Shown here: in pieces, positions 3,252 through 24,860 of the stretch
How positions within the stretch are numbered: position 1 is the first letter of the stretch
How the letters are laid out: every line of letters starts with the position of its first letter
Assembly: GCA_030621515.1 (NCBI GenBank)
Contig: JAUXHN010000009.1
Location: 1 to 45,796 of the forward strand
Length of the DNA: 45,796 bases
Reading direction: 5' to 3'
Origin: Deltaproteobacteria bacterium
GTDB taxonomy: Bacteria; Myxococcota_A; Polyangia; JAAYKL01
Translations under genes and position numbers: made by a program
The notes under the pieces: generated by a model
Databases searched by the model: none
Told to the model about the DNA's origin: nothing
Seen by the model: the letters and a program-made list of their open reading frames with translations, nothing else

Positions 3252-4586
3252 ATGATCAATTCTAAATACCTTTTGCTGAGCCTGGTGCTGCTCGCGGCGG
3301 TTGCCGTTCTTGGGTGCGACGGAGATTCTCTCAATGCAAGTTTCGATGCATCCACGGACACCGATACCGACACGGACATCGACACGGATATCGACACGGA
3401 CACCGACACGGACACCGACACGGATACGGACACCGACACGGACACCGACACGGACACCGACACGGACACCGACACGGACACCGACACGGACACCGACACA
3501 GACACCGATACGGATACCGATACGGAAACAGACATTGACACCGATACTGTGTGGGCGCTGGTGGGCGACAATCCCATCGACGGATTGGGCAGCAGCGGCG
3601 TGCGGGATCACGACCTGGGAAGCGATGGCACGCAGCCTACGGTGGCCTACGTACAGGAGGCCGGGACCGGGTCGGTTCTTGTTCTGACCTACACCGGAGT
3701 TCCGGTGTGGGCCCCGCTGAACCCGGCGCCCGGCACCGGAGCGGAGACCGTGTCCCTGGCTTTCGATGGCCTCGTGCCCTATGTCCTCTACACCCAGAGC
3801 GCGTTTGCCGACAATGTGCATGTCAAATTCCGCACGGTCGGCCTCTGGCAGGAGTTGGGTCCGCCCGGGTTCAGCTTGCAGTGTATGTCTCACTGGTCCG
3901 CCGCCCTCGCCCTGGACGGCGTCAATCCTCATCTGGTCACCCATGGAGCCGGGGGCTGTGGCATCGGCGTTGAGCACACCTGGTGGAACGGAGCATCCTG
4001 GCAGCAGCATTCCCCCGGGCTGCTCACCATGATGGGTCACGGCTATCCGGACATCCTGTTCACTGACCAGGCCTACATCGCGATTAGTGATAACAGTGTT
4101 CACAGTGTCAAATATTGGGACTCCGTCGCCATCGCCTGGGCAGACCTTGGCTCGCCCCTCAGCATGAACGTCTTCAACGGATCACAAGAGGACATGTCCA
4201 TCGCCGCCGACGGTTTGGGAAACCTGTACGTGGCCTGGGCCGAGAACGATGGCACGGGGCTGTATGAGGTGTATGTCAAGACCTTCCTTGTGGACTGGAC
4301 CCTGGTTGGCGCGGGCAAGGTGAGCGGCCCCGGGAGCGCCGGGTCCCCGTCCATCTCCATCATCGGCGGCATTCCCCTGGTGGCCTATGTTGAGGAAGTG
4401 GGAGGGGTGAATCAGGTGTTCGTCCGGATGTGGAACGGAGCTACATGGCAGCAGTTAGGTCCGGCCCTCAACGAGGACCTTACGGAGTCAGCCTACAAGC
4501 CGGTGATCGTGGGCATCGGCGGCGTGCCCCATGTGGCGTTCCGAGAGGAGGTGGCCGGCGTCCAGCACCTCTACGTGAAGAACTGA
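3252..4586 (+). CDS. Lipoprotein with long (Asp-Thr)n linker and beta-propeller/sialidase-like C-terminal region
   Basis: Signal peptide and lipobox MINSKYLLLSLVLLAAVAVLGC followed by (DT)n, then repeated modules such as VYVKTFLVDWTLVGAGKVSGPG and VFVRMWNGATWQQLGPALN. Confidence 0.8.
   Translation: MINSKYLLLSLVLLAAVAVLGCDGDSLNASFDASTDTDTDTDIDTDIDTDTDTDTDTDTDTDTDTDTDTDTDTDTDTDTDTDTDTDTDTDTETDIDTDTVWALVGDNPIDGLGSSGVRDHDLGSDGTQPTVAYVQEAGTGSVLVLTYTGVPVWAPLNPAPGTGAETVSLAFDGLVPYVLYTQSAFADNVHVKFRTVGLWQELGPPGFSLQCMSHWSAALALDGVNPHLVTHGAGGCGIGVEHTWWNGASWQQHSPGLLTMMGHGYPDILFTDQAYIAISDNSVHSVKYWDSVAIAWADLGSPLSMNVFNGSQEDMSIAADGLGNLYVAWAENDGTGLYEVYVKTFLVDWTLVGAGKVSGPGSAGSPSISIIGGIPLVAYVEEVGGVNQVFVRMWNGATWQQLGPALNEDLTESAYKPVIVGIGGVPHVAFREEVAGVQHLYVKN
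3354..3548 (+). repeat. In-frame hexanucleotide GAY-ACN minisatellite encoding (Asp-Thr)n
   Basis: Continuous gacacg/gacacc/gatacc array read directly. Confidence 0.95.
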
Positions 4587-4649
4587 CTTTTCCCACGTCC
4601 TGTCGCAAGTCATGTTACAATTTCCAAATCAACTAAAAGAGGTGCGATC

Positions 4650-5852
4650 ATGAGAACCACGGGATTAGTCGTTTTTGTCATGGGCATGATGGTGGTTGCT
4701 GTTCACGGGTGCAAAGGAGATTCTATCAACGAAGGTTTCGATGCATCCACGGATACCGATACTGACACCGACACGGATACCGACACGGATACCGACACGG
4801 ATACCGACACGGATACCGACACGGATACCGACACGGATACTGACACCGACACGGATACTGACATCGACATGGATACTGACACCGATACCGATACCGATAC
4901 CGACACGGATACTGACACCGACACGGATACTGACACCGATACGGATACTGACACCGACACGGATACAGATACGGATACTGACACCGATACGGATACTGAC
5001 ACCGACACAGATACAGATACCGACACAGATACAGATCCGTTGTTGCCGGACTATATAGTCACGGGCCTCACGATCCCCACCACGGTGATGATGGGATACA
5101 CCATTGACGCCACGCCAACGGTGCAGAACATCGGCACCGCCGCCGGCACGGTCAATCCTTTGTGGTGCACGCTGATACTATCCACGGACGACAACCCCGA
5201 CACCCCAGGGGACGACTTCTTCCTGATGGGCGCGGGGATGATCATGGTTCCCGGCCCCCTGGCGATAAGCGCGAGTAGCTCCGGCACCCAGAATTTCGAT
5301 ATCTCGCCGTTCCCGGGCAACACCCCTGGAACCTACTATGTGTTTGTGGAAGTCAGCCCGTGGGCGGAACCCGAGCTGGACACGACAAACAACATCTATG
5401 CTCACACGAGCCAGCTTCAGGTAACAGCCTTCACGGGTACGGATGTGACCATCGAAACGTACCCCACCGCCAATGCAGACACCGTCAGGACGAACGTCAC
5501 CGTGTACTTCGATGACGGCATAACCATTGTACCGGGCTTCTGGGGCGCCCAGACCGCCAAGCCGGACGATTACGTCTACTGGGCCGGCCAGCTCCCGGCG
5601 GGCACCTACTTCGTGAAGGTGGGATCATACCTCACCAACGGCTACGGGCCTTATTCCATCATCTACTACACGGGAGTATCGGGGACCTACACCGCGGAGG
5701 CCCCGGGCATGGACCACGACGACGTGGACGCCTACGAGCCCGACGACGACGCGGCGAGCGCGACAACTCTCCTCGACGACGTGCAACAGAACCACACCAT
5801 CACCGATGCGCCGACCAACTACTACGACTGGTTCGAAATCACCGTTATCTGA
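4650..5852 (+). CDS. Lipoprotein with (Asp-Thr)n linker, CARDB-like and PPC-like domains
   Basis: MRTTGLVVFVMGMMVVAVHGC lipobox, long DT array, then LPDYIVTGLTIPTTVMMGYTIDATPTVQNIGTAAG (CARDB-like) and WAGQLPAGTYFVKVGSYLTNGYGPYSIIYY (pre-peptidase C-terminal-like). Confidence 0.8.
   Translation: MRTTGLVVFVMGMMVVAVHGCKGDSINEGFDASTDTDTDTDTDTDTDTDTDTDTDTDTDTDTDTDTDTDTDIDMDTDTDTDTDTDTDTDTDTDTDTDTDTDTDTDTDTDTDTDTDTDTDTDTDTDTDTDPLLPDYIVTGLTIPTTVMMGYTIDATPTVQNIGTAAGTVNPLWCTLILSTDDNPDTPGDDFFLMGAGMIMVPGPLAISASSSGTQNFDISPFPGNTPGTYYVFVEVSPWAEPELDTTNNIYAHTSQLQVTAFTGTDVTIETYPTANADTVRTNVTVYFDDGITIVPGFWGAQTAKPDDYVYWAGQLPAGTYFVKVGSYLTNGYGPYSIIYYTGVSGTYTAEAPGMDHDDVDAYEPDDDAASATTLLDDVQQNHTITDAPTNYYDWFEITVI
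4749..5037 (+). repeat. In-frame hexanucleotide array encoding (Asp-Thr)n
   Basis: gataccgacacggatactgacacc... read directly. Confidence 0.95.
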
Positions 5853-15060: not shown

Positions 15061-15762
15061 ATGACAAAAAGAACGTTGACGAATGGGTTATTGACGACTG
15101 CTGTTGCGGCACTGCTGCTTGTATCTTGCGGTGGTCTAAAAATGCCCGACCGCCCGGATGGAAGCGCGGCCGACACGGATACTGACACCGATACCGACAC
15201 GGATACTGACACCGATACCGACACGGATACTGACATCGATACGGATACCGACACGGATACTGACACCGATACCGACACGGATACTGACACCGACACCGAC
15301 ACGAATACCGGTTCAATTGTGTGCAATCTGGGGACGTACACCGGCAATTTCGGGATCACAACACAATCGGATGTTGCAACTCTCGCAGGGTACATTTCGA
15401 TCTCTGGATACCTTTCAATCGACTGCCCATTGTGCACTGACTTGAGCGAGTTGTTTTGCCTCACCTCGGTGGGCACGTACTTATACATCGACAACAACGC
15501 CGCCCTCACGAGCGTGGACGGACTGAATAACATCACCTCGGTGGGCCACTTACGCATCCGCTACAACGACGTCCTCCCCAACCTGGACGGCCTGAGTAGC
15601 ATCACCTCGGTGAATGATAACTTTTTGATCGATAACAACCCCGCTCTTCCCGATTGCGAGGTGTGCGAGCTTTTGGACCAACTCACCAGCATACCAGGCT
15701 TCACAAGTGTCCAGGACAACCTCTCCGATTCCTGCACGTCGGTTCCGGGTAACTGTCCGTAG
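15061..15762 (+). CDS. Lipoprotein with (Asp-Thr)n linker and receptor-L/LRR-like domain
   Basis: LLLVSCGG lipobox, DT array, then YISISGYLSID...LTSVGTYLYIDNNAALTSVDGLNNITSVGHLRI repeats. Confidence 0.8.
   Translation: MTKRTLTNGLLTTAVAALLLVSCGGLKMPDRPDGSAADTDTDTDTDTDTDTDTDTDTDIDTDTDTDTDTDTDTDTDTDTDTNTGSIVCNLGTYTGNFGITTQSDVATLAGYISISGYLSIDCPLCTDLSELFCLTSVGTYLYIDNNAALTSVDGLNNITSVGHLRIRYNDVLPNLDGLSSITSVNDNFLIDNNPALPDCEVCELLDQLTSIPGFTSVQDNLSDSCTSVPGNCP
15172..15309 (+). repeat. In-frame hexanucleotide array encoding (Asp-Thr)n
   Basis: gacacggatactgacaccgatacc higher-order repeats read directly. Confidence 0.95.
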
Positions 15763-15808: not shown

Positions 15809-18064
15809 CTACAGCATGGAGACCGGATCTATATCCAGGCGTATTCGGACCCCGGTCGGTGGTGACTCGATCTGCGAGACGACCTCGCTCAACAGTTTCC
15901 TGATCTGTATCTGACGCTTCGCACGGAGCATTATCCTCCAGCGATATCGATTCTGAAGATACGGAATCGGCGCGGGCACCGGCCCCAGCATGGATATCGG
16001 CGGGCGATCGATCTTCCTCCAGGCATCCCTCAAGTTGGAAAAGATATCCCGTGCGGCCATCTCCACCTTTGGCCCGTCGTGACCGCTTAACCGAAGCGCC
16101 GCGAGCCTCCCGAAGGGCGGATATCCCAGCTCTTTTCTGTTCTCTGATTCATATGCGGCGAAAGAGCCATAGTCATGGGTGCGGGCAAAAGCGACGGCCG
16201 GGTGCCCGGGGCTGTACGTCTGGATCAGGGCCCTTCCACCGAGGGAGGAGCGACCCGCCCGTCCGGCGACCTGGGTAAGGAGCGCGAAGGTGCGCTCGGC
16301 GGCGCGGAAGTCGGGCATGTGCAATCCGACGTCGCCGAGGAGAACCCCCACGAGTGTGACCCTCGGAAAATCGTGCCCCTTGGTCACCATCTGTGTGCCC
16401 ACCAGGATATCGATCTCCCCTTGTCGAAGCAGCTCGAGCACCGGCTGCGCTCCACGACCCATCGCCGAATCACGGTCGAGACGAGCCACGCGGGCGCTCG
16501 GGTAGAGCTTCGCGAGCAACTCCTCCACCTTCTGGGTGCCCATACCCAGGGGTTCGAGATCCGGCGCGCCGCAGGACGGGCACGCCTCGGGCACCGGTCG
16601 GCGTGCGCCACAGTAATGACACATCACCCCCGGGGGCCGGCTGTGAAAAGTGAGAGAGACCGCGCAATCGTCGCAGCGAAGGGCATTTCCGCAGCTCGAA
16701 CAGATCAAGCTGGGCGCGAAACCGCGCCTGTTCAAGAAGAGTATCGCCTGCTCCTTTTGCTCGAGAACCCGAGTGAGTTCCTCGTGGAGCGGGTCCGAGA
16801 TCACCTTCTGCCCACCGGGCCCAAACCCATGAGTGGTCAGATCGACGATCTCTATCTCGGGCAGGGGCTGCCTGGTGGGTCGCTCGGTGAGCTCGAGCCG
16901 GGTCAGCTTTCCGATATCGGCGTTGTGAAACGTCTCCATGGAAGGAGTCGCGGATCCCAGAACGGCCACGGCGCCGGCCCGAGCGGCCCGGAGCAGCGCG
17001 AGATCGCGAGCGTTGTAAGGAAAACCCCGCTCCTGCTTGAACGATCCGTCGTGCTCCTCGTCCACAACCACTATCCCCAGATCCTCCACCGGAGCGAATA
17101 CGGCGGACCTAACGCCCACAGCGACTTTCACCGCACCAGTGCGAAGGAGCTTCCACTGATCGAAACGCTCACGGTCGGTCAACCCCGAATGCCACACCGC
17201 GAGAGACTCGCCGAACCGCGCCCGATAACGGTTCACGAGCTGTGGCGTCAACGTGATCTCGGGCACCAGGACAAGAGCGCCGCGCCCGTGACTTGTCGTC
17301 TCCTCGATGGCCCGCAGGTACACCTCGGTTTTTCCCGAACCTGTGATCCCCTGAAGTAAAAACCCACGGTATTCGCCGGAATCTATGGCTGTGACAATGG
17401 ACGCAACCGCCCTGTCCTGTTGAGCCGTCAGGGTCGGCGGGGTATCGCGATCCACCGAAGTCAACCAGAAGGGATCCGGCGGCCGCTCGCGCTCCTCCAC
17501 CTCAACCATCTCATCCTGAACGAGCCTTCGAACGTGCTTCGAGGCATCCGAATACACAGAGCGCAACCGGGGCAACGCCATCGGGCCGGACTCGACGATC
17601 ATGGCCAGAACCGCAGCCCGCTTCGGCGCGCGCCGGGTCATCCCGTCCAGCGCATCGGGCGCCCGCATCAAGGCCGTCACAACCTTGTGAACCCGATCCT
17701 TCACCCTCGGAGATCGCACCGAACCCCCGCTCGTGAGGGGATCGATCCCGGGTGGGAGCGCCGACCGCAGCACTTCTCCTATGGGATGCATGTAATAATC
17801 CGCGGCCTCGACCAGGAAGGCCAACAGCTCTCGCGGCAAGGCCGGTTCGTCATCCAGAAGTGACTCCACCTTCTTTATCTTGAAACCGGGATCCTGCGTG
17901 CTGTGCGATTCGGACAGGAGGTATCCCGCCAGCTTCCTTCGTCCGAACGAAACCAGAACCCTCGCGCCCGCAACGGGATCTCCTATCTCCTGCGGAACCT
18001 CGTACAGGAAGGTACGACGCAATGGAGCAGGAACGGCCACATTCCATATCCGCGAAGCGCTCAT
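15809..18064 (-). CDS. priA: Primosomal protein N' (replication restart helicase PriA)
   Basis: LLQGITGSGKTEVYLRAIEE, LVPEITLTPQL, VVDEEHDGSFKQE, zinc-binding cysteines CSSCGNALRCDDC...CHYCGARRPVPEACPSCG, ILVGTQMVTKGHDFPRVTLVGVL. ATG at 18064. Confidence 0.95.
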   Translation of the reverse strand: MSASRIWNVAVPAPLRRTFLYEVPQEIGDPVAGARVLVSFGRRKLAGYLLSESHSTQDPGFKIKKVESLLDDEPALPRELLAFLVEAADYYMHPIGEVLRSALPPGIDPLTSGGSVRSPRVKDRVHKVVTALMRAPDALDGMTRRAPKRAAVLAMIVESGPMALPRLRSVYSDASKHVRRLVQDEMVEVEERERPPDPFWLTSVDRDTPPTLTAQQDRAVASIVTAIDSGEYRGFLLQGITGSGKTEVYLRAIEETTSHGRGALVLVPEITLTPQLVNRYRARFGESLAVWHSGLTDRERFDQWKLLRTGAVKVAVGVRSAVFAPVEDLGIVVVDEEHDGSFKQERGFPYNARDLALLRAARAGAVAVLGSATPSMETFHNADIGKLTRLELTERPTRQPLPEIEIVDLTTHGFGPGGQKVISDPLHEELTRVLEQKEQAILFLNRRGFAPSLICSSCGNALRCDDCAVSLTFHSRPPGVMCHYCGARRPVPEACPSCGAPDLEPLGMGTQKVEELLAKLYPSARVARLDRDSAMGRGAQPVLELLRQGEIDILVGTQMVTKGHDFPRVTLVGVLLGDVGLHMPDFRAAERTFALLTQVAGRAGRSSLGGRALIQTYSPGHPAVAFARTHDYGSFAAYESENRKELGYPPFGRLAALRLSGHDGPKVEMAARDIFSNLRDAWRKIDRPPISMLGPVPAPIPYLQNRYRWRIMLRAKRQIQIRKLLSEVVSQIESPPTGVRIRLDIDPVSML

Positions 18065-18756
18065 CTGGGCCACCCCTCGCCCATCTTCGCGCGGACACGA
18101 GATCGCGCCGCCCGGTCGCCCGAGGCCGCTCGCTCCTCCCTCACAGCCTCGCTCCTGGTCAGATGCAGGCGCCTCCAGATCCGCGCGCGTCGAAGCGCAA
18201 GATCGATCATGCCCACCAGGCACATCACCACCCCCGCCGCCGCGATCAGGGAAAACAGGAGATCCGCCGGGGCCGAGCCCGCACCCGTGGACGAAAATCC
18301 ATGGCCGCCGATTATCTTTATGGATAGCAACGTGAACGCCGCGACTCCCGCAGCGTTCAGAACAAACGAGGAGACCCTTGCGGGTTTTTCTTGGGGGATG
18401 GAAACTGCGGTTTGCCCCACGCCGCGCCGGGCCATGAGAGCCGGAATTACTGCGCCTGCCAGAGCGACAGCGAACAGGGCTCCGAGAAAGGGCAGCAAAA
18501 AGACGATACCTCTGCCGAGGCAACCGTAAAGAGCCGTCGTCGGATCTGGGCGCAGTGTCACCGCATCGAACAGGCCGTGGCGCACCAATTCCACGGTGGT
18601 CCCCGCCAGCCACTCCTTCATCGACACGAACATCGCGGCGCTGACGATCAACACCAGGCCGCCGGTCAGGACCCGCGATCCGGCAAACAGGCCCTCGCGC
18701 GCCGCAGCGGCGATCCTCTCATGAGATGGGGGTACTACACGGCCACCGGTTTCCAT
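18061..18756 (-). CDS. FlhB/YscU-like type III export-gate membrane domain without the C-terminal autocleavage domain
   Basis: PPSHERIAAAAREGLFAGSRVLT (cf. FlhB TxxRxxxARxxGQVxxSxEL), hydrophobic segments, then VGMIDLALRRARIWRRLHLTRSEAVREERAASGDRAARSRVRAKM (cf. LDYxYQRxxxxxxLxMxKxExKxExKxxEGDPxxKxxxR); ends before any NPTH. Confidence 0.6.
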   Translation of the reverse strand: METGGRVVPPSHERIAAAAREGLFAGSRVLTGGLVLIVSAAMFVSMKEWLAGTTVELVRHGLFDAVTLRPDPTTALYGCLGRGIVFLLPFLGALFAVALAGAVIPALMARRGVGQTAVSIPQEKPARVSSFVLNAAGVAAFTLLSIKIIGGHGFSSTGAGSAPADLLFSLIAAAGVVMCLVGMIDLALRRARIWRRLHLTRSEAVREERAASGDRAARSRVRAKMGEGWPR

Positions 18757-18828: not shown

Positions 18829-19407
18829 TCAGTGTTTTCCACTCTTCCGATTCTCCAGGTCCTTGGCCGCAGCCAGAGCGACAGCAACCATCTCCTGCTC
18901 GTGAGTCCCGGTGCCGTCGGCGGCCTTTTTCGCTTCGATTCTTTTAACCGATCTGGATATAACGGCTCCTGTAATGGACATGCAGATAAATAGCATAATG
19001 ATAACTGCAAAAACACCTATATATCGCAAGACCAGGGTCCCGAAAATCCAACTCCAGCTGTCTTTCTTGATGACAACAACGGTTTTTCCTTCGAGTTTCT
19101 TTTTGGAAACCGCAATGGAATGCCATTTCAGATTGCCGTAGTCTGTAATCTGTGTAGTTTCCTCTCGCTCAATTGTTTTTATGTCTTTGTGATCCTTCAG
19201 GAGACCTTCATAGAAGTCCACAATTTCGTCGCGAGACATTGCTGTTTTCATCTCTACACGATCTTCTGTCCTGTCGACGACCTCACTTCCGGGAACAACG
19301 GGAACTCCAAGAAAATCCTCTGCCAGGAGAGGCGTTGTAAAGATTGTCAGAAGAGCGACTACGGCAAACATCGTTTTCTTTGTTTTTGCTAACTTCATAA
19401 TGGCCAT
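18829..19407 (-). CDS. OadG-like subunit fused to an N-terminal periplasmic domain
   Basis: Signal peptide, VPVVPGSEVVDRTEDRVEMKTAMSRDEIVDFYEGLLKDHKDI domain, then TM IGVFAVIIMLFICMSITGAVISRSVKRIEAKKA and EQEMVAVALAAAKDL typical of OadG tails; follows oadB2. Confidence 0.6.
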   Translation of the reverse strand: MAIMKLAKTKKTMFAVVALLTIFTTPLLAEDFLGVPVVPGSEVVDRTEDRVEMKTAMSRDEIVDFYEGLLKDHKDIKTIEREETTQITDYGNLKWHSIAVSKKKLEGKTVVVIKKDSWSWIFGTLVLRYIGVFAVIIMLFICMSITGAVISRSVKRIEAKKAADGTGTHEQEMVAVALAAAKDLENRKSGKH

Positions 19408-19408
19408 C

Positions 19409-20551
19409 TCAATCAAACATGCTGATAAACATCCCGGCTGCGGCAGCCGAGCCGATAACTCCAGCCAGATTTGGTCCCAACGCGTGCATTAGCAGATTAT
19501 TGGATTCGTCATATTTTTGACCCTCGGTCTGACAGACTCGTGCTGCCATTGGAACAGCCGAAACCCCCGCCGCGCCGATTATGGGATTGATCTTGGTCTT
19601 GACAAAAAAGTTCATAATCTTGGCGGTCAATATGCCGCCGACTGTACATACCGCGAAGTCGACAAGGCCCAATCCGAAGATCAATAGCGGTTTCCAGGTG
19701 AGAAACTTTTCGGCATGCATTGTGGCGCCCACGGAGAGTCCCAGGAAGATCGTTACGATGTTCATCAAGGCACCCTGCGATGTCCCGGTCAGGCGCTCTA
19801 CAACACCACTTTCCTTCATCAGGTTGCCGAACATGAACATTCCCAGAAGCGGTATGACCGAAGGCACGAGCAACGCGATGATGGTCACAGCTACAATTGG
19901 GAAAAAGATTTTTTCTGTCTGGGAGACCGGTCTGAGCTGACTCATCCTTATCATTCGTTCTTTCTTTGTAGTCAGTAATCGAATGATGGGAGGTTGCAAA
20001 AGCGGGACCATGGCCATGTACGAATATGCCGCCAGCGCATTGGGCCCCAGTAACTGCGGAGCCAGGTGCTGCGTCAAATAGACTGTCGTCGGCCCGTCAG
20101 CGCCGCCGATAATACTGACCGAGGCCGCCTCCTTGAGAGTGAAACCGGCGATCACCGTGCCGGTGAAGGTGATGAACACACCAAGCTGTGCGCCGGCTCC
20201 AATGAGCAGCGACTTGGGATTGGCTATGAGCGGCCCAAAATCGGTCATGGCCCCGAGACCCAGGAAGATGACACAAGGAATCACCTCCCACTCCAATCCA
20301 TAATGGTAGAATATTTGCAGGAGTTGGTCGTGGCCATGGGAATGGCCCATCAGTGGAACCAGCGGGAAATTGACGATGAATATTCCGAAACCGATGGGAA
20401 GAAGCAGCAAAGGTTCAAACTTCTTTGCAATCGCCAGGTATATGAACCCCCCACCAACAACCCACATGATGAGGTATTTCCAACTAAACGTCGGTATTCC
20501 CGTCGTGTAGATTATGCCCCACAACGTATCTAATGCGTCGTATATGCTCAT
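19409..20551 (-). CDS. oadB: Sodium ion-translocating decarboxylase subunit beta, second copy
   Basis: [79 protein letters not shown]. Confidence 0.93.
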   Translation of the reverse strand: MSIYDALDTLWGIIYTTGIPTFSWKYLIMWVVGGGFIYLAIAKKFEPLLLLPIGFGIFIVNFPLVPLMGHSHGHDQLLQIFYHYGLEWEVIPCVIFLGLGAMTDFGPLIANPKSLLIGAGAQLGVFITFTGTVIAGFTLKEAASVSIIGGADGPTTVYLTQHLAPQLLGPNALAAYSYMAMVPLLQPPIIRLLTTKKERMIRMSQLRPVSQTEKIFFPIVAVTIIALLVPSVIPLLGMFMFGNLMKESGVVERLTGTSQGALMNIVTIFLGLSVGATMHAEKFLTWKPLLIFGLGLVDFAVCTVGGILTAKIMNFFVKTKINPIIGAAGVSAVPMAARVCQTEGQKYDESNNLLMHALGPNLAGVIGSAAAAGMFISMFD

Positions 20552-20809: not shown

Positions 20810-21676
20810 TTATTCCAGTAATCGAACGATATCTCTCCACGTCTTTTCGAGGGCAGTCTTTACCTCGGGGATCACCAGGGGAGTCTCCCTCCGGGCGAGG
20901 GCCCTGGGAACTCCTTCGTCGAATGGGACCCTTCCCACCGTATGCGCCCCGCGATTTTTCACCATCTCCTCGATCTCCTCGGTGACCGCCACGCTCAGGT
21001 CGTACTTGTTGACCACCACTGCCGATTCGAGCTTGAAGTGATCGCACAGGTCGAGCATTCGTTTCAGATCGTGCGCCCCGGACGACGACGGCTCCGTGAC
21101 CGCCACCACCAGATCGACTCCACCGACGGCTGGATGGACCGGGCATCCAATGCCGGGCGGCCCGTCGAAGATCGCCAGATCGATGTTGCGCTCCATCGCG
21201 ATGAGTTTTGTATCGGCGCGCACCTTTGCCACCAGTTTTCCCGAGTTGTCCTGCGCAATGCCCAGAGCGCCGTGAACCATGGGCCCCGTCGATGTCTCCC
21301 GGTGGAACAGGGTACCGGCCCTGTTGTTCATAAAAGTGATGCAGTCCTCGGGGCAGACAACACTGCACGCACGACAACCCTCGCAGAGAAGATCGTTCAC
21401 CCTTGCAAGATTATCGATCACCGGAATCGCCTCGTAGCGGCACGCGTTCTCGCATTCGCCGCAACCGGTGCACTTGTTCTCATCGACACGCGCTCTTTTG
21501 CCCGCGAGGAACGGTTCTTCCACGAAATCCTCTCCGTGCATCAGCAACGCAAGGTTTGCCGCGTCCACGTCGCAATCGCCCAGGGCGACAGGCCCCTTCG
21601 CCAGGTGCGCAAAGGCGGCGGTGAAGGAGGTCTTGCCGGTGCCGCCCTTGCCGCTCACCACTACTATCTCCTTCAT
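20810..21676 (-). CDS. MinD-superfamily P-loop ATPase with inserted 2x[4Fe-4S] ferredoxin domain
   Basis: VVSGKGGTGKTSFTAAFAHLA, CTGCGECENACRYEAIPV, CEGCRACSVVCPEDCITF, IFDGPPGIGCPV. Confidence 0.92.
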   Translation of the reverse strand: MKEIVVVSGKGGTGKTSFTAAFAHLAKGPVALGDCDVDAANLALLMHGEDFVEEPFLAGKRARVDENKCTGCGECENACRYEAIPVIDNLARVNDLLCEGCRACSVVCPEDCITFMNNRAGTLFHRETSTGPMVHGALGIAQDNSGKLVAKVRADTKLIAMERNIDLAIFDGPPGIGCPVHPAVGGVDLVVAVTEPSSSGAHDLKRMLDLCDHFKLESAVVVNKYDLSVAVTEEIEEMVKNRGAHTVGRVPFDEGVPRALARRETPLVIPEVKTALEKTWRDIVRLLE

Positions 21677-22542
21677 GGGGATACTCCTTGCGCCAGGGAG
21701 AGCAGGCCCTGAGCCAGCTTCACGATAGAGCTCGCAAACTCGGAACTGTCCTCCATGGGCATTCGCGAGGCGGCGTATGATTCGGCGACCGCGCGATCGA
21801 ACGGGATCTCGGCGAGCACCGGGATCGATCTGGCCTCCAGCAGGGCGCGGGTCCCGTCACCACCAATATCCGACCTGTTGATCACCGCAGCCATTTTCCT
21901 TCCCAGGGCTTTTCCCATCTCCAGCGCGAGGATGAGATCGTGCTCGCCGAAGGGTGTCGGTTCCGTTACCAGCAACACCAGGTCGGCGATCTCCACTGCG
22001 GCCATCGCCGAACAGGAGGTTCCCGGCGGGGCGTCGATTACCACCAGGCGATCGCCATCCGCATTTTCGGTTGACGCTTCCACGACGCCGGAGATCAACG
22101 GAGTGACCCGCGCCTCTCCCACGTCCAGGGTCGCCGAATAGAACTCGAGACCATTCGAGTCGCCGTGCGTGATGGTCCCGATCTCCCGCCCGGTCTCCTG
22201 CAGAAAACCCTCGGGGCAGGCGAGCACGCAGGCGCCGCACCCGTGGCACAGCTCGTCGAAGACGATCACGCTTCCCTTTGCGGAAAGAATCGCGTTGAAC
22301 GCGCAAATCTCCTGGCACTTTCCGTGGGCAGCGCAGGTCCGTCCTTCAAGGGTGGGTATTTTCACGGTGAAACGTTTCTCTTCGATCACATCGGGCTTGA
22401 GGAAGAGGTGTCCGTTCGGTTCCTCCGCGTCCGCGTCCACATATGTGACCGCTTTATTCCCGTCAGCCCACAGCCTCGCGAGACTCGTGGAGATCAGGGT
22501 CTTGCCGGTGCCGCCCTTGCCGCTGGCCACGGAGATGATCAT
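21673..22542 (-). CDS. MinD-superfamily P-loop ATPase with inserted ferredoxin domain (paralogue)
   Basis: MIISVASGKGGTGKTLISTSLARLW, CHGCGACVLACPEGFL, VVIDAPPGTSCSAM. Confidence 0.9.
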   Translation of the reverse strand: MIISVASGKGGTGKTLISTSLARLWADGNKAVTYVDADAEEPNGHLFLKPDVIEEKRFTVKIPTLEGRTCAAHGKCQEICAFNAILSAKGSVIVFDELCHGCGACVLACPEGFLQETGREIGTITHGDSNGLEFYSATLDVGEARVTPLISGVVEASTENADGDRLVVIDAPPGTSCSAMAAVEIADLVLLVTEPTPFGEHDLILALEMGKALGRKMAAVINRSDIGGDGTRALLEARSIPVLAEIPFDRAVAESYAASRMPMEDSSEFASSIVKLAQGLLSLAQGVSP

Positions 22543-22901
22543 CAGTATTTCACGATCTGCATTTGCGTGAGCTGCCCGGCTACCATCTTGTCGAGGGCCT
22601 GCCCCGCGGTGAGACCCTGCGGGGCGTTCCACATCTGAATTCCGAGTCTGCTCAGGGCTTCGTATGCCTTTGGACCGAATCGACCGGCGATAACCGCGTC
22701 CACATTGGCGCCGGACATCGTGGCGGCAGCTCCGGTTCCCGCGCCGTGGGCTGCCTCGACCGATTCATTGTCGATAGTCGAAATGATTTCCCTTGTTTCG
22801 GCATCCACAATGAGGAACACCCCCGCCCGACCGAAGCGGGGATCGATCAGCGTGTCGAGATCCCCGGCGTGTTCCAGTGTGATTGCTACCAGCTTGCCCA
22901 T
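22542..22901 (-). CDS. NifB/NifX-family (dinitrogenase Fe-Mo cofactor biosynthesis-like) protein
   Basis: VAITLEHAGDLDTLIDPRFGRAGVFLIVDAETRE...AAHGAGTGAAATMSGANVDAVIAGRFGPKAYEAL. Confidence 0.88.
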   Translation of the reverse strand: MGKLVAITLEHAGDLDTLIDPRFGRAGVFLIVDAETREIISTIDNESVEAAHGAGTGAAATMSGANVDAVIAGRFGPKAYEALSRLGIQMWNAPQGLTAGQALDKMVAGQLTQMQIVKY

Positions 22902-23300
22902 TCAGTGACCCCCGCAACTATCAGCGTGATCGTGAGCGCACGGCACGATTCCCTTGATGTCACCCCGCAAGTAGGCGTCCAGGACATTCTTGACATTTCC
23001 GATGGCCCCGGTGGCGACCTCTATTCCCATGTTGATGAAAAGGTCGATCGCTCTGGGTCCCATACCTCCCGCCAGGATCACGTTTGCACCCAGATCCCTG
23101 ATGAAGGCCGGCATAACACCTGGCTGGTGGCTGCCGTAGAACGAGTTGCGCTCCACCTTGGACTCCATAACCGTATCCCCTTCTATGCTCACCATGAAAT
23201 AGTATGGACACCTGCCGAAGTGTTGGCTCACCTGCCCGTCGAAACCCTTGTCATCCTCGACGGCGATGGCGATGTACTTTTTGGTTTTCTGTTCGTTCAC
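22902..23300 (-). CDS. NifB/NifX-family protein
   Basis: YIAIAVEDDKGFDGQVSQHFGRCPYYFMV...GVMPAFIRDLGANVILAGGMGPRAIDLFINMGIEVATG. Confidence 0.88.
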   Translation of the reverse strand: MNEQKTKKYIAIAVEDDKGFDGQVSQHFGRCPYYFMVSIEGDTVMESKVERNSFYGSHQPGVMPAFIRDLGANVILAGGMGPRAIDLFINMGIEVATGAIGNVKNVLDAYLRGDIKGIVPCAHDHADSCGGH

Positions 23301-23332
23301 TCTTGTTGCCTCCTTTCAGAAAAAATCGGGAT

Positions 23333-24178
23333 TTACCGATTCGTTTTTTCGTTCCATCCGCGTTCAAGGTTCGCAGCGATCTCCGTGAGCATCAGGGACG
23401 CGGGATTATCCGGCAGATCGACCACCAGCGGCTTGCCCGAGTCTCCCGCCGACACCATGGCGGGGGCGATCAGGATCCTTCCCAGAAACGGAACATCCAT
23501 CTCTTTTGCGGCCCGCTCCCCGCCCCCGGTCTTGAAGAGATCCACCCTGTGACCGCACTCGGGGCAGACAAACCCTGACAGGTTTTCCACGATGCCCAGC
23601 ACCCGCTGGTCCATGTCCCTCACAAAATTGACACACTTGCGCGAGTCCAGCAATGCCACATCCTGCGGAGAAGTGACTATCACCACGCCGTCGGAATCGG
23701 GGATCAGCTGGGCCACGGTCATGGGTTCGTCCCCTGTTCCGGGCGGGCAATCGACTATCAGGACATCGACGCCCTTCCAGTTGCCCTGGCCCAGGAATTG
23801 CCGGATGAGCGAGGACTTTCTGGGACCCCTCCAGGCCACGGGCACCGTGGTGTCCGGAAGAAAAGAGGCGATGGAGAGCACTCGCACTCCGTCTCGAGCC
23901 CTTGCCGGCGCGAGTGTGCCGTCATCGGAGCCGTAGACCCGATAGCCCTCCGTGCCTGTCATCAGGGCCACGTTGGGGCCGTGCAGATCCGCGTCCACTA
24001 TCCCCACTGATTTGCCCATGGCCGCAAATGCGTAGGCAATGTTCACCGAGATGGTGGTCTTGCCCACGCCTCCCTTCCCGCTCATGACCAGGATCTTGTG
24101 GGGCACTTCCGCCATGGCCGTCCGCGCGGCGCTCTCCTCTTGCTCCAGCTTGTGCGACATATTTACATTGCAAGACAT
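23333..24178 (-). CDS. Mrp/NBP35-family P-loop ATPase
   Basis: HKILVMSGKGGVGKTTISVNIAYAFAAMGKSVGIVDADLHGPNVALMTG, LIVDCPPGTGDEPMTVAQLI, ENLSGFVCPECGHRVDLFKTGGGERAAKEMDVPFLGRI. Confidence 0.94.
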   Translation of the reverse strand: MSCNVNMSHKLEQEESAARTAMAEVPHKILVMSGKGGVGKTTISVNIAYAFAAMGKSVGIVDADLHGPNVALMTGTEGYRVYGSDDGTLAPARARDGVRVLSIASFLPDTTVPVAWRGPRKSSLIRQFLGQGNWKGVDVLIVDCPPGTGDEPMTVAQLIPDSDGVVIVTSPQDVALLDSRKCVNFVRDMDQRVLGIVENLSGFVCPECGHRVDLFKTGGGERAAKEMDVPFLGRILIAPAMVSAGDSGKPLVVDLPDNPASLMLTEIAANLERGWNEKTNR

Positions 24179-24180
24179 GG

Positions 24181-24399
24181 CTAACGATTACCCCGGCCGC
24201 GTCCACCCCGGCCCTGGCCCTGTCCGCCGCCACCACCCTGTCCGCGTCCCCGTCCACCACCCCGGGGTTCTCCTCCGCGTCCGATCCCGCGCAGAGGTTT
24301 TTCATTCTGCGCCGTGTCCTTGTCGTCGTTACATTTTCCAAGACCCCTTCCCGTTCTGGGGCCGTCTCCTTGTGGTCCTTTTCCATCAAATCCTGACAT
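24181..24399 (-). CDS. DUF5320-like Gly/Arg-rich small protein
   Basis: MSGFDGKGPQGDGPRTGRGLGKC N-terminus followed by a GRGRGQGGGGGQGQGRGG low-complexity tail. Confidence 0.75.
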   Translation of the reverse strand: MSGFDGKGPQGDGPRTGRGLGKCNDDKDTAQNEKPLRGIGRGGEPRGGGRGRGQGGGGGQGQGRGGRGRGNR

Positions 24400-24446
24400 C
24401 TCATCCTCCTTGAAGCCTATCTCAGTAGGCTCTTGGCCATGTGGCT

Positions 24447-24860
24447 CTAGTTGTTTTCTCTTCGGCCTTTTGGGCCACCCTTGCCTCGACCTCGTCCACC
24501 GCGCCTCGGCCCGAACCATCCGGGGGCGCCCTGCCTGCAACAGCGGGCGACGGGAAGCTCCTCTCCCCGTGCGTATGTCTCCACCAGATCCGATGCGTCT
24601 CCCGCGAGCCCGGCGATAATGCTTATCCCCAGGTTCTGTGCGAGGGGCTCGAATCGACGATTGAAGCCTCCGCACAGGATCAACTCCACGCCGAGATCTC
24701 TCAGCCCGGTCAGGCGGTCGTGCCAGCCGGCGGCGACCAGGGCGATAACGGTTGTTCGATCCACGCGGCCATTCGATATCTCCGCGAGCAGCAACTGGTC
24801 GGCAAAGCCGAATCTGGGCGCCACCCGGGTGCCAAAAAGTGGAACAGCAACCTTCATCAA
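24447..24860 (-). CDS. NifB/NifX-family protein with Gly/Arg-rich tail
   Basis: MKVAVPLFGTRVAPRFGFADQLLLAEISNGRVDRTTVIAL...LGVELILCGGFNRRFEPLAQNLGISIIAGLAGD. Confidence 0.8.
   Translation of the reverse strand: MMKVAVPLFGTRVAPRFGFADQLLLAEISNGRVDRTTVIALVAAGWHDRLTGLRDLGVELILCGGFNRRFEPLAQNLGISIIAGLAGDASDLVETYARGEELPVARCCRQGAPGWFGPRRGGRGRGKGGPKGRRENN

Follow-up and report, generated by a model that had tools for sequence, protein, structure and literature searches.

Our results show that a gene of the FlhB/SctU family has been kept without its cytoplasmic switch domain throughout most of a Myxococcota family. FlhB/SctU is known as a self-cleaving switch that orders type III secretion. The gene, here called short sctU' (sctU'/flhB-short), lies on the minus strand at 18061..18756 of the window, by which we mean the whole stretch of 45,796 nucleotides that was analysed. 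It encodes a homologue of 231 aa. This protein is probably the SctU/FlhB component of a reduced non-flagellar type III secretion system whose genes are dispersed and which has lost substrate switching.

The reading frame runs from an ATG at 18756-18754 through 231 codons to a TGA at 18063-18061. This stop overlaps the start codon of the next gene (ATG, 18064-18062) as ATGA (18061..18064, minus strand); in a sister species (G001) the same junction reads GTGA. The downstream gene (15809..18064, minus strand) is priA, which codes for the primosomal helicase and is a conserved neighbour. Its product carries the Pfam domains PriA_3primeBD, Zn_ribbon_PriA and PriA_C, which bears out the coupling to priA proposed in an earlier note on this DNA.

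The sole Pfam match of the short protein is to PF01312 (FlhB/HrpN/YscU/SpaS; 54.6 bits, E 1.4e-14, cut-off 24.4). With this score the membership in the FlhB/YscU family (Bac_export_2), as claimed in the earlier note, stands, and the similarity to FlhB, as judged from the sequence, is far above chance. The match falls into two stretches, at about positions 5-98 and 170-238 of the 335 of the profile, and is best over aa 159-226 of the protein. The C-domain (about 240-335 of the profile) and NPTH are absent from the reading frame, just as the earlier note had it, and they are absent from the genome as well: a profile search of the window's genome (G000) found neither a full-length FlhB nor a stand-alone C-domain. 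Scores against the NCBIfam equivalog models are far under their cut-offs (TIGR00328, 35.3 vs 349.25 bits; TIGR01404, 32.8 vs 358 bits). By its profile matches, the protein is a homologue of FlhB/SctU but not a canonical member with switch function.

An AlphaFold2 model of the short protein, built from 12 homologues (pLDDT 75), consists of four long helices followed by a tail that is also helical. Among PDB structures, this model has one meaningful match, to the FlhB chain of the FliPQR-FlhB complex (6s3l_K; prob 0.93, TM 0.39/0.45, E 0.21). With moderate confidence, the model suggests an FlhB-type four-helix transmembrane topology. The protein begins with a putative cytoplasmic segment that is FlhB-like (PPSxxRxAAAAREGLFAGSRVL; aa 1-27, 18676..18756, on the minus strand like all features that follow). 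The segment aligns to the start of PF01312 (from about profile position 5), and its residues P10, R14, A18 and G22 are invariant in the 12 homologues. Predicted membrane helices 1 (aa 28-68, 18553..18675) and 2 (aa 72-110, 18427..18543) are separated by a loop (aa 111-126, 18379..18426) from helices 3 (aa 127-151, 18304..18378) and 4 (aa 161-197, 18166..18276), all placed by AlphaFold2/DSSP; helix 4 overlaps the best PF01312 stretch. The loop, delimited in the AlphaFold2 model, resembles a shortened FlhB_L. It has 16 aa, about 14 fewer than the 30 residues of FlhB_L in V. mimicus FlhB (PMC7064499), and it carries its own GRTAVPLP-like motif (G-R/Q-T-A-V-x-L/I-P), different from FlhB_L, in which G114, V118 and P121 are invariant or nearly so in the 12 homologues.

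The linker RRARIWRRLHLTRSEAVREERAASGDRAARSRVRAKM is present in the reading frame. Alignment with full-length FlhBs points to a retained FlhB_CN-like helix, LHLTRSEAVREERAASGDRAARSRVRAKM (18064..18165), and in this alignment the C-terminus precedes the equivalent of NPTH. Of the three regions compared, the CN-like helix shows the lowest dN, and it does so in each of the three species pairs. The short protein retains the four-helix FlhB_TM part together with the first cytoplasmic helix (FlhB_CN) and has lost the globular autocleaving domain.

One could argue that the short form is nothing but a sequencing frameshift or an assembly truncation of a full FlhB. The genome is a draft assembly of 346 contigs, and the earlier note had raised a frameshift near 18061. 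However, the stop has the same position beside priA in two other species of the window's genus (91% and 82% identity), and an equivalent C-terminus is found in nine further genomes of the family, so the short gene cannot be put down to an artefact. In independent species and genera, the start of priA marks the end of the gene, and between the two no frame has room for a C-domain. We give an error of this kind practically no chance.

The short gene is present in 12 of the 14 genomes of the family, across eight genera, with intact frames. In 10 of these 12 genomes, namely the window's own and those of nine among its 11 relatives, priA is the next gene. In the remaining two, which are two of the three genomes of genus g4 (G005 and G013), there is no priA in the stretch examined, and in G013 the gene is near a contig end. 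A contig scan with an alignment of six short proteins matched only family members, and the named near relatives are Myxococcota or 'Deltaproteobacteria' MAGs. We found no description of an FlhB without its C-domain in the open-licence PMC papers, of which our coverage is incomplete.

The gene is under purifying selection. Its dN/dS in the window's genus is 0.25-0.29 (about 0.28, bootstrap limits 0.16-0.49), and the PriA control yields 0.12-0.14. A full-length FlhB also occurs in eight of the 12 genomes with the short form, while G000, G001, G002 and G004 have only the short form. We considered that the gene could be a truncated copy of the family's flagellar FlhB and rejected this origin: in the tree, all 12 short proteins group in a single clade (100/99) that is separate from the flagellar one (98/99).

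The linkage of sctU to priA is old and class-wide, because full-length SctU genes are also found upstream of priA in other families of the class. These proteins carry NPTH in families f5 and f6, NPTQ in f10 and NPVR in f13; in f57 and f12 there is no motif, and the C-domain is still recognisable or eroded. Forms without the C-domain occur near priA in f4 (G032, with the order sctR-S-T, three other genes, short sctU, galU, priA) and in f17 (G102). In f17 (G170), and in f33 of another class (G304, as sctR-S-T-U), such a form stands apart from priA. With the long branches in the tree, the family's clade may take more than one deep position, and a single domain loss and multiple losses both fit. 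The nearest SctR proteins outside the family are mostly encoded in sctR-S-T-U clusters of another Myxococcota family. A functional link with PriA was considered and rejected, as its one point of support is the linkage, which the full-length SctU of other families shares; proximity to priA is not evidence for a role in replication restart. A lone FlhB homologue in yet another family (L158:1150-2106; G143, f11) keeps its C-domain, has ISDDDEF in place of NPTH and adjoins a CaCA-type antiporter gene.

The earlier note had reported no other type III secretion gene in the window and had proposed a search of the genome. The first statement holds within the part looked at. Our profile searches of G000 covered FlhB/SctU, SctV, SctR, SctS, SctT, SctN, SctQ and SctJ, and they found homologues of SctR, S, T, V, N, Q and J on six further contigs, which together with the window (C127) makes seven loci. 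The homologues comprise one FlhA/SctV-like gene (C64), one FliP/SctR gene (C275, beside lon), one SctS-SctT pair (C3, before bamA) and one FliI/SctN ATPase over its cut-off (C95). There is also one FliN/SctQ-like gene (C276) and one SctJ-like gene of half length (C222), whose product covers only positions 88-170 of PF01514, the second half; a full-length FliF had no match in G000. By homology, these members of the Sct core are present, with J at half length and V without SD1/SD2. The dispersion is read from the 346 contigs of the draft, and the same neighbours recur in other genomes: the sctR-lon neighbourhood is constant between genera, and so is the flanking of sctS-sctT by a GltJ-like zinc-ribbon gene and bamA-skp. 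Injectisome profiles score higher than flagellar ones for SctV (496 vs 473), SctJ (37 vs 29), SctQ (83 vs 58) and also SctR. SctN scores about equally on both (479 vs 477), and FliQ' and FliR' are slightly nearer the flagellar models.

Around sctS-sctT (L056:6168-12878; L059, L062, L065, L068, L071, L072), a receiver/TPR gene and the GltJ-like MJ0042 zinc-ribbon/AgmX gene lie on one side and bamA-skp on the other in all genera examined. A similar zinc-ribbon gene precedes short flhB in G009 (L050). A functional link of the zinc-ribbon gene with the type III genes is conceivable. Genes for Ser/Thr protein kinases (L079:93-2255, L125:6222-8534) directly adjoin both the half-length sctJ' and the sctQ' gene.

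Could this set be a decaying relic, that is, injectisome or flagellar genes left behind after the loss of the machine and heading for deletion? The C-domain, NPTH, half of SctJ and SD1/SD2 of SctV have been lost piecemeal, and in one genome (G008) none of the searched type III membrane genes was found. However, dN/dS is well under 1 for every type III component tested (0.04-0.34), the frames are intact in the 12 genomes and their neighbourhoods mostly fixed, and the dispersed set is retained even in genomes with a full flagellar set. Decay therefore seems quite improbable to us. The earlier note had called the gene a "repurposed or degenerate FlhB". Given purifying selection, family-wide conservation and the dispersed Sct homologues, the idea of a degenerate or isolated gene finds no support, and repurposing stays a candidate.

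SctV is without SD1/SD2 in G000, G002, G005, G012 and G013 and in the window's genus. In G004 the copy shows this deletion as well, up to the contig end that truncates it, in G007 part of the SD1/SD2 region is lost, and in four family members (G003, G006, G009 and G011) SctV is complete. The internal loss is clean, with the transmembrane domain and SD3-SD4 kept (L054:3814-5439 on C64 of G000; L057, L069, L148, L149).

Since SD1/SD2 are gone in the window's genus, a non-secretory role has to be weighed. The gate proteins could serve another envelope process, for example by assisting pili or in the nanotube role that has been proposed for the export core. Besides SD1/SD2, the FlhB_C dock is gone in this genus, sctS-sctT sit with the GltJ-like gene and bamA, and there is a precedent in non-flagellated Lysobacter enzymogenes, where FlhA, FlhB, FliR and FliI aid twitching (PMC7277350). 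Against this stand the retained homologues of SctQ, SctJ and the ATPase SctN, which serve export, and the complete SctV of four family members. We consider a role without protein export unlikely, if less so than decay. The nanotube CORE in particular is recognised by five gate genes without the rest of the type III system; we rejected this assignment, since homologues of the ATPase, SctQ and SctJ are also present.

We favour a switch-less gate in a reduced secretion system. In known systems FlhB_TM wraps the FliPQR gate, and the N-terminus, loop and CN helix of FlhB lie below the aperture (PMC7064499). We infer that short SctU' would clamp onto SctRST as FlhB does and extend the helical gate, and that its N-terminus, short loop and CN helix may couple movement driven by SctV and the PMF to this gate. 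Without the switch domain there would be neither a dock for early substrates nor a ruler-driven switch; therefore the gate would take one substrate class constitutively. In Salmonella, loss of FlhB_CCD abolishes early secretion, loss of FlhB_CCD and Fluke leads to constitutive, ruler-independent late secretion, and the 2026 proposal is that the switch is flipped when the FlhB C-domain is physically removed (PMC13344023). Because FlhB_CCD is needed for early secretion in Salmonella, the natural short protein should give a gate without switching. The analogy with late substrates is incomplete, as SD1/SD2 of SctV are also lost in the window's genus. The shortened loop, the moderate fold match and the flagellar lean of FliQ' and FliR' likewise count against our reading.

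A switch-less gate would fit a machine that has no needle or hook to measure. It would also be in keeping with the Myxo non-flagellar systems, for which needle and secretin are reported absent (PMC3459982), and with the needleless T3SS* of M. xanthus (PMC12075869). A bolder reading is that the type III apparatus of this Myxococcota lineage is minimal and encoded by fully scattered genes, its SctU permanently switch-less and its SctV, in several genera, without SD1/SD2, and that selection maintains it even where a complete flagellum is present. We see slightly less than an even chance for it.

Another candidate is the hat-like inner-membrane complex related to the fT3SS, which is affected by core export proteins and still assembles in C. 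jejuni when FlhB has no C-domain (PMC9380563). However, this complex is reported only with flagellar type III systems, it was not observed in Myxococcus xanthus, where the genes are all of the non-flagellar kind, and G000 has neither a full-length FlhB nor a match to full-length FliF. That short SctU' belongs to such a complex is very improbable.

A selected, vertically inherited form that consists of the gate half only would mean that the gate and switch roles are separable in nature. If the bolder reading is correct, the export gate of these species lacks a switch by nature and has taken on a new task, and the SctU proteins linked to priA document, in living species, how the switch was lost step by step. 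These proteins grade from NPTH through NPTQ/NPVR to no motif and finally no domain, and the series is test material for the purpose of the switch. A type III set can be fully scattered, and may then be overlooked by cluster-based searches.

A few further observations concern the window. Directly upstream of short flhB (18829-20551) are an oxaloacetate decarboxylase beta subunit gene (PF03977) and a weak OadG-like gene; in other genera their place is often taken by a small ferredoxin gene, which lies ahead of short sctU' in most of them. At 20810-24857, MinD/ParA-type ATPases with inserted ferredoxin domains are clustered with NifX-like Nitro_FeMo-Co proteins (Pfam). Close to their signal peptide, many predicted lipoproteins (window 3252-5852 and 15061-15762; L054, L056, L079-L081) have long linkers of the type (Thr-Asp)n or (Ser-Asp)n, and such linkers occur on each contig read from the window's genus.

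How does short SctU' compare with known systems? It shares with FlhB/SctU (PF01312, TIGR00328, TIGR01404) the N-terminal segment, the four-helix transmembrane domain and the CN helix, at a score above the Pfam cut-off, as well as the co-occurrence with SctR, S, T and V; it differs in having no autocleaving C-domain and no NPTH, and in its loop (16 vs about 30 residues). Non-flagellated Lysobacter enzymogenes OH11 likewise retains export genes without flagella (PMC7277350), but it still exports flagellin, whereas the set of G000 is mostly of non-flagellar type, dispersed and domain-reduced. The Myxococcales non-flagellar 'Myxo' group and T3SS* (PMC3459982, PMC12075869) are similar in that they belong to Myxococcota and keep the export apparatus, the ATPase and a small ring protein. 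Their genes, however, form a clustered locus of conserved order, whereas in G000 they are found at seven loci among other genes, SctU is without its C-domain, SctJ has half its length and, in several genera, SctV is without SD1/SD2. The Salmonella FlhB without FlhB_CCD (PMC13344023) is truncated before or at the cleavage site, and in both cases the early dock and switching are predicted to be lost. It is a laboratory mutant of an intact flagellar system, whereas the natural protein ends earlier and has a shorter loop. These genomes look like the evolutionary counterpart of that C-domain removal model.
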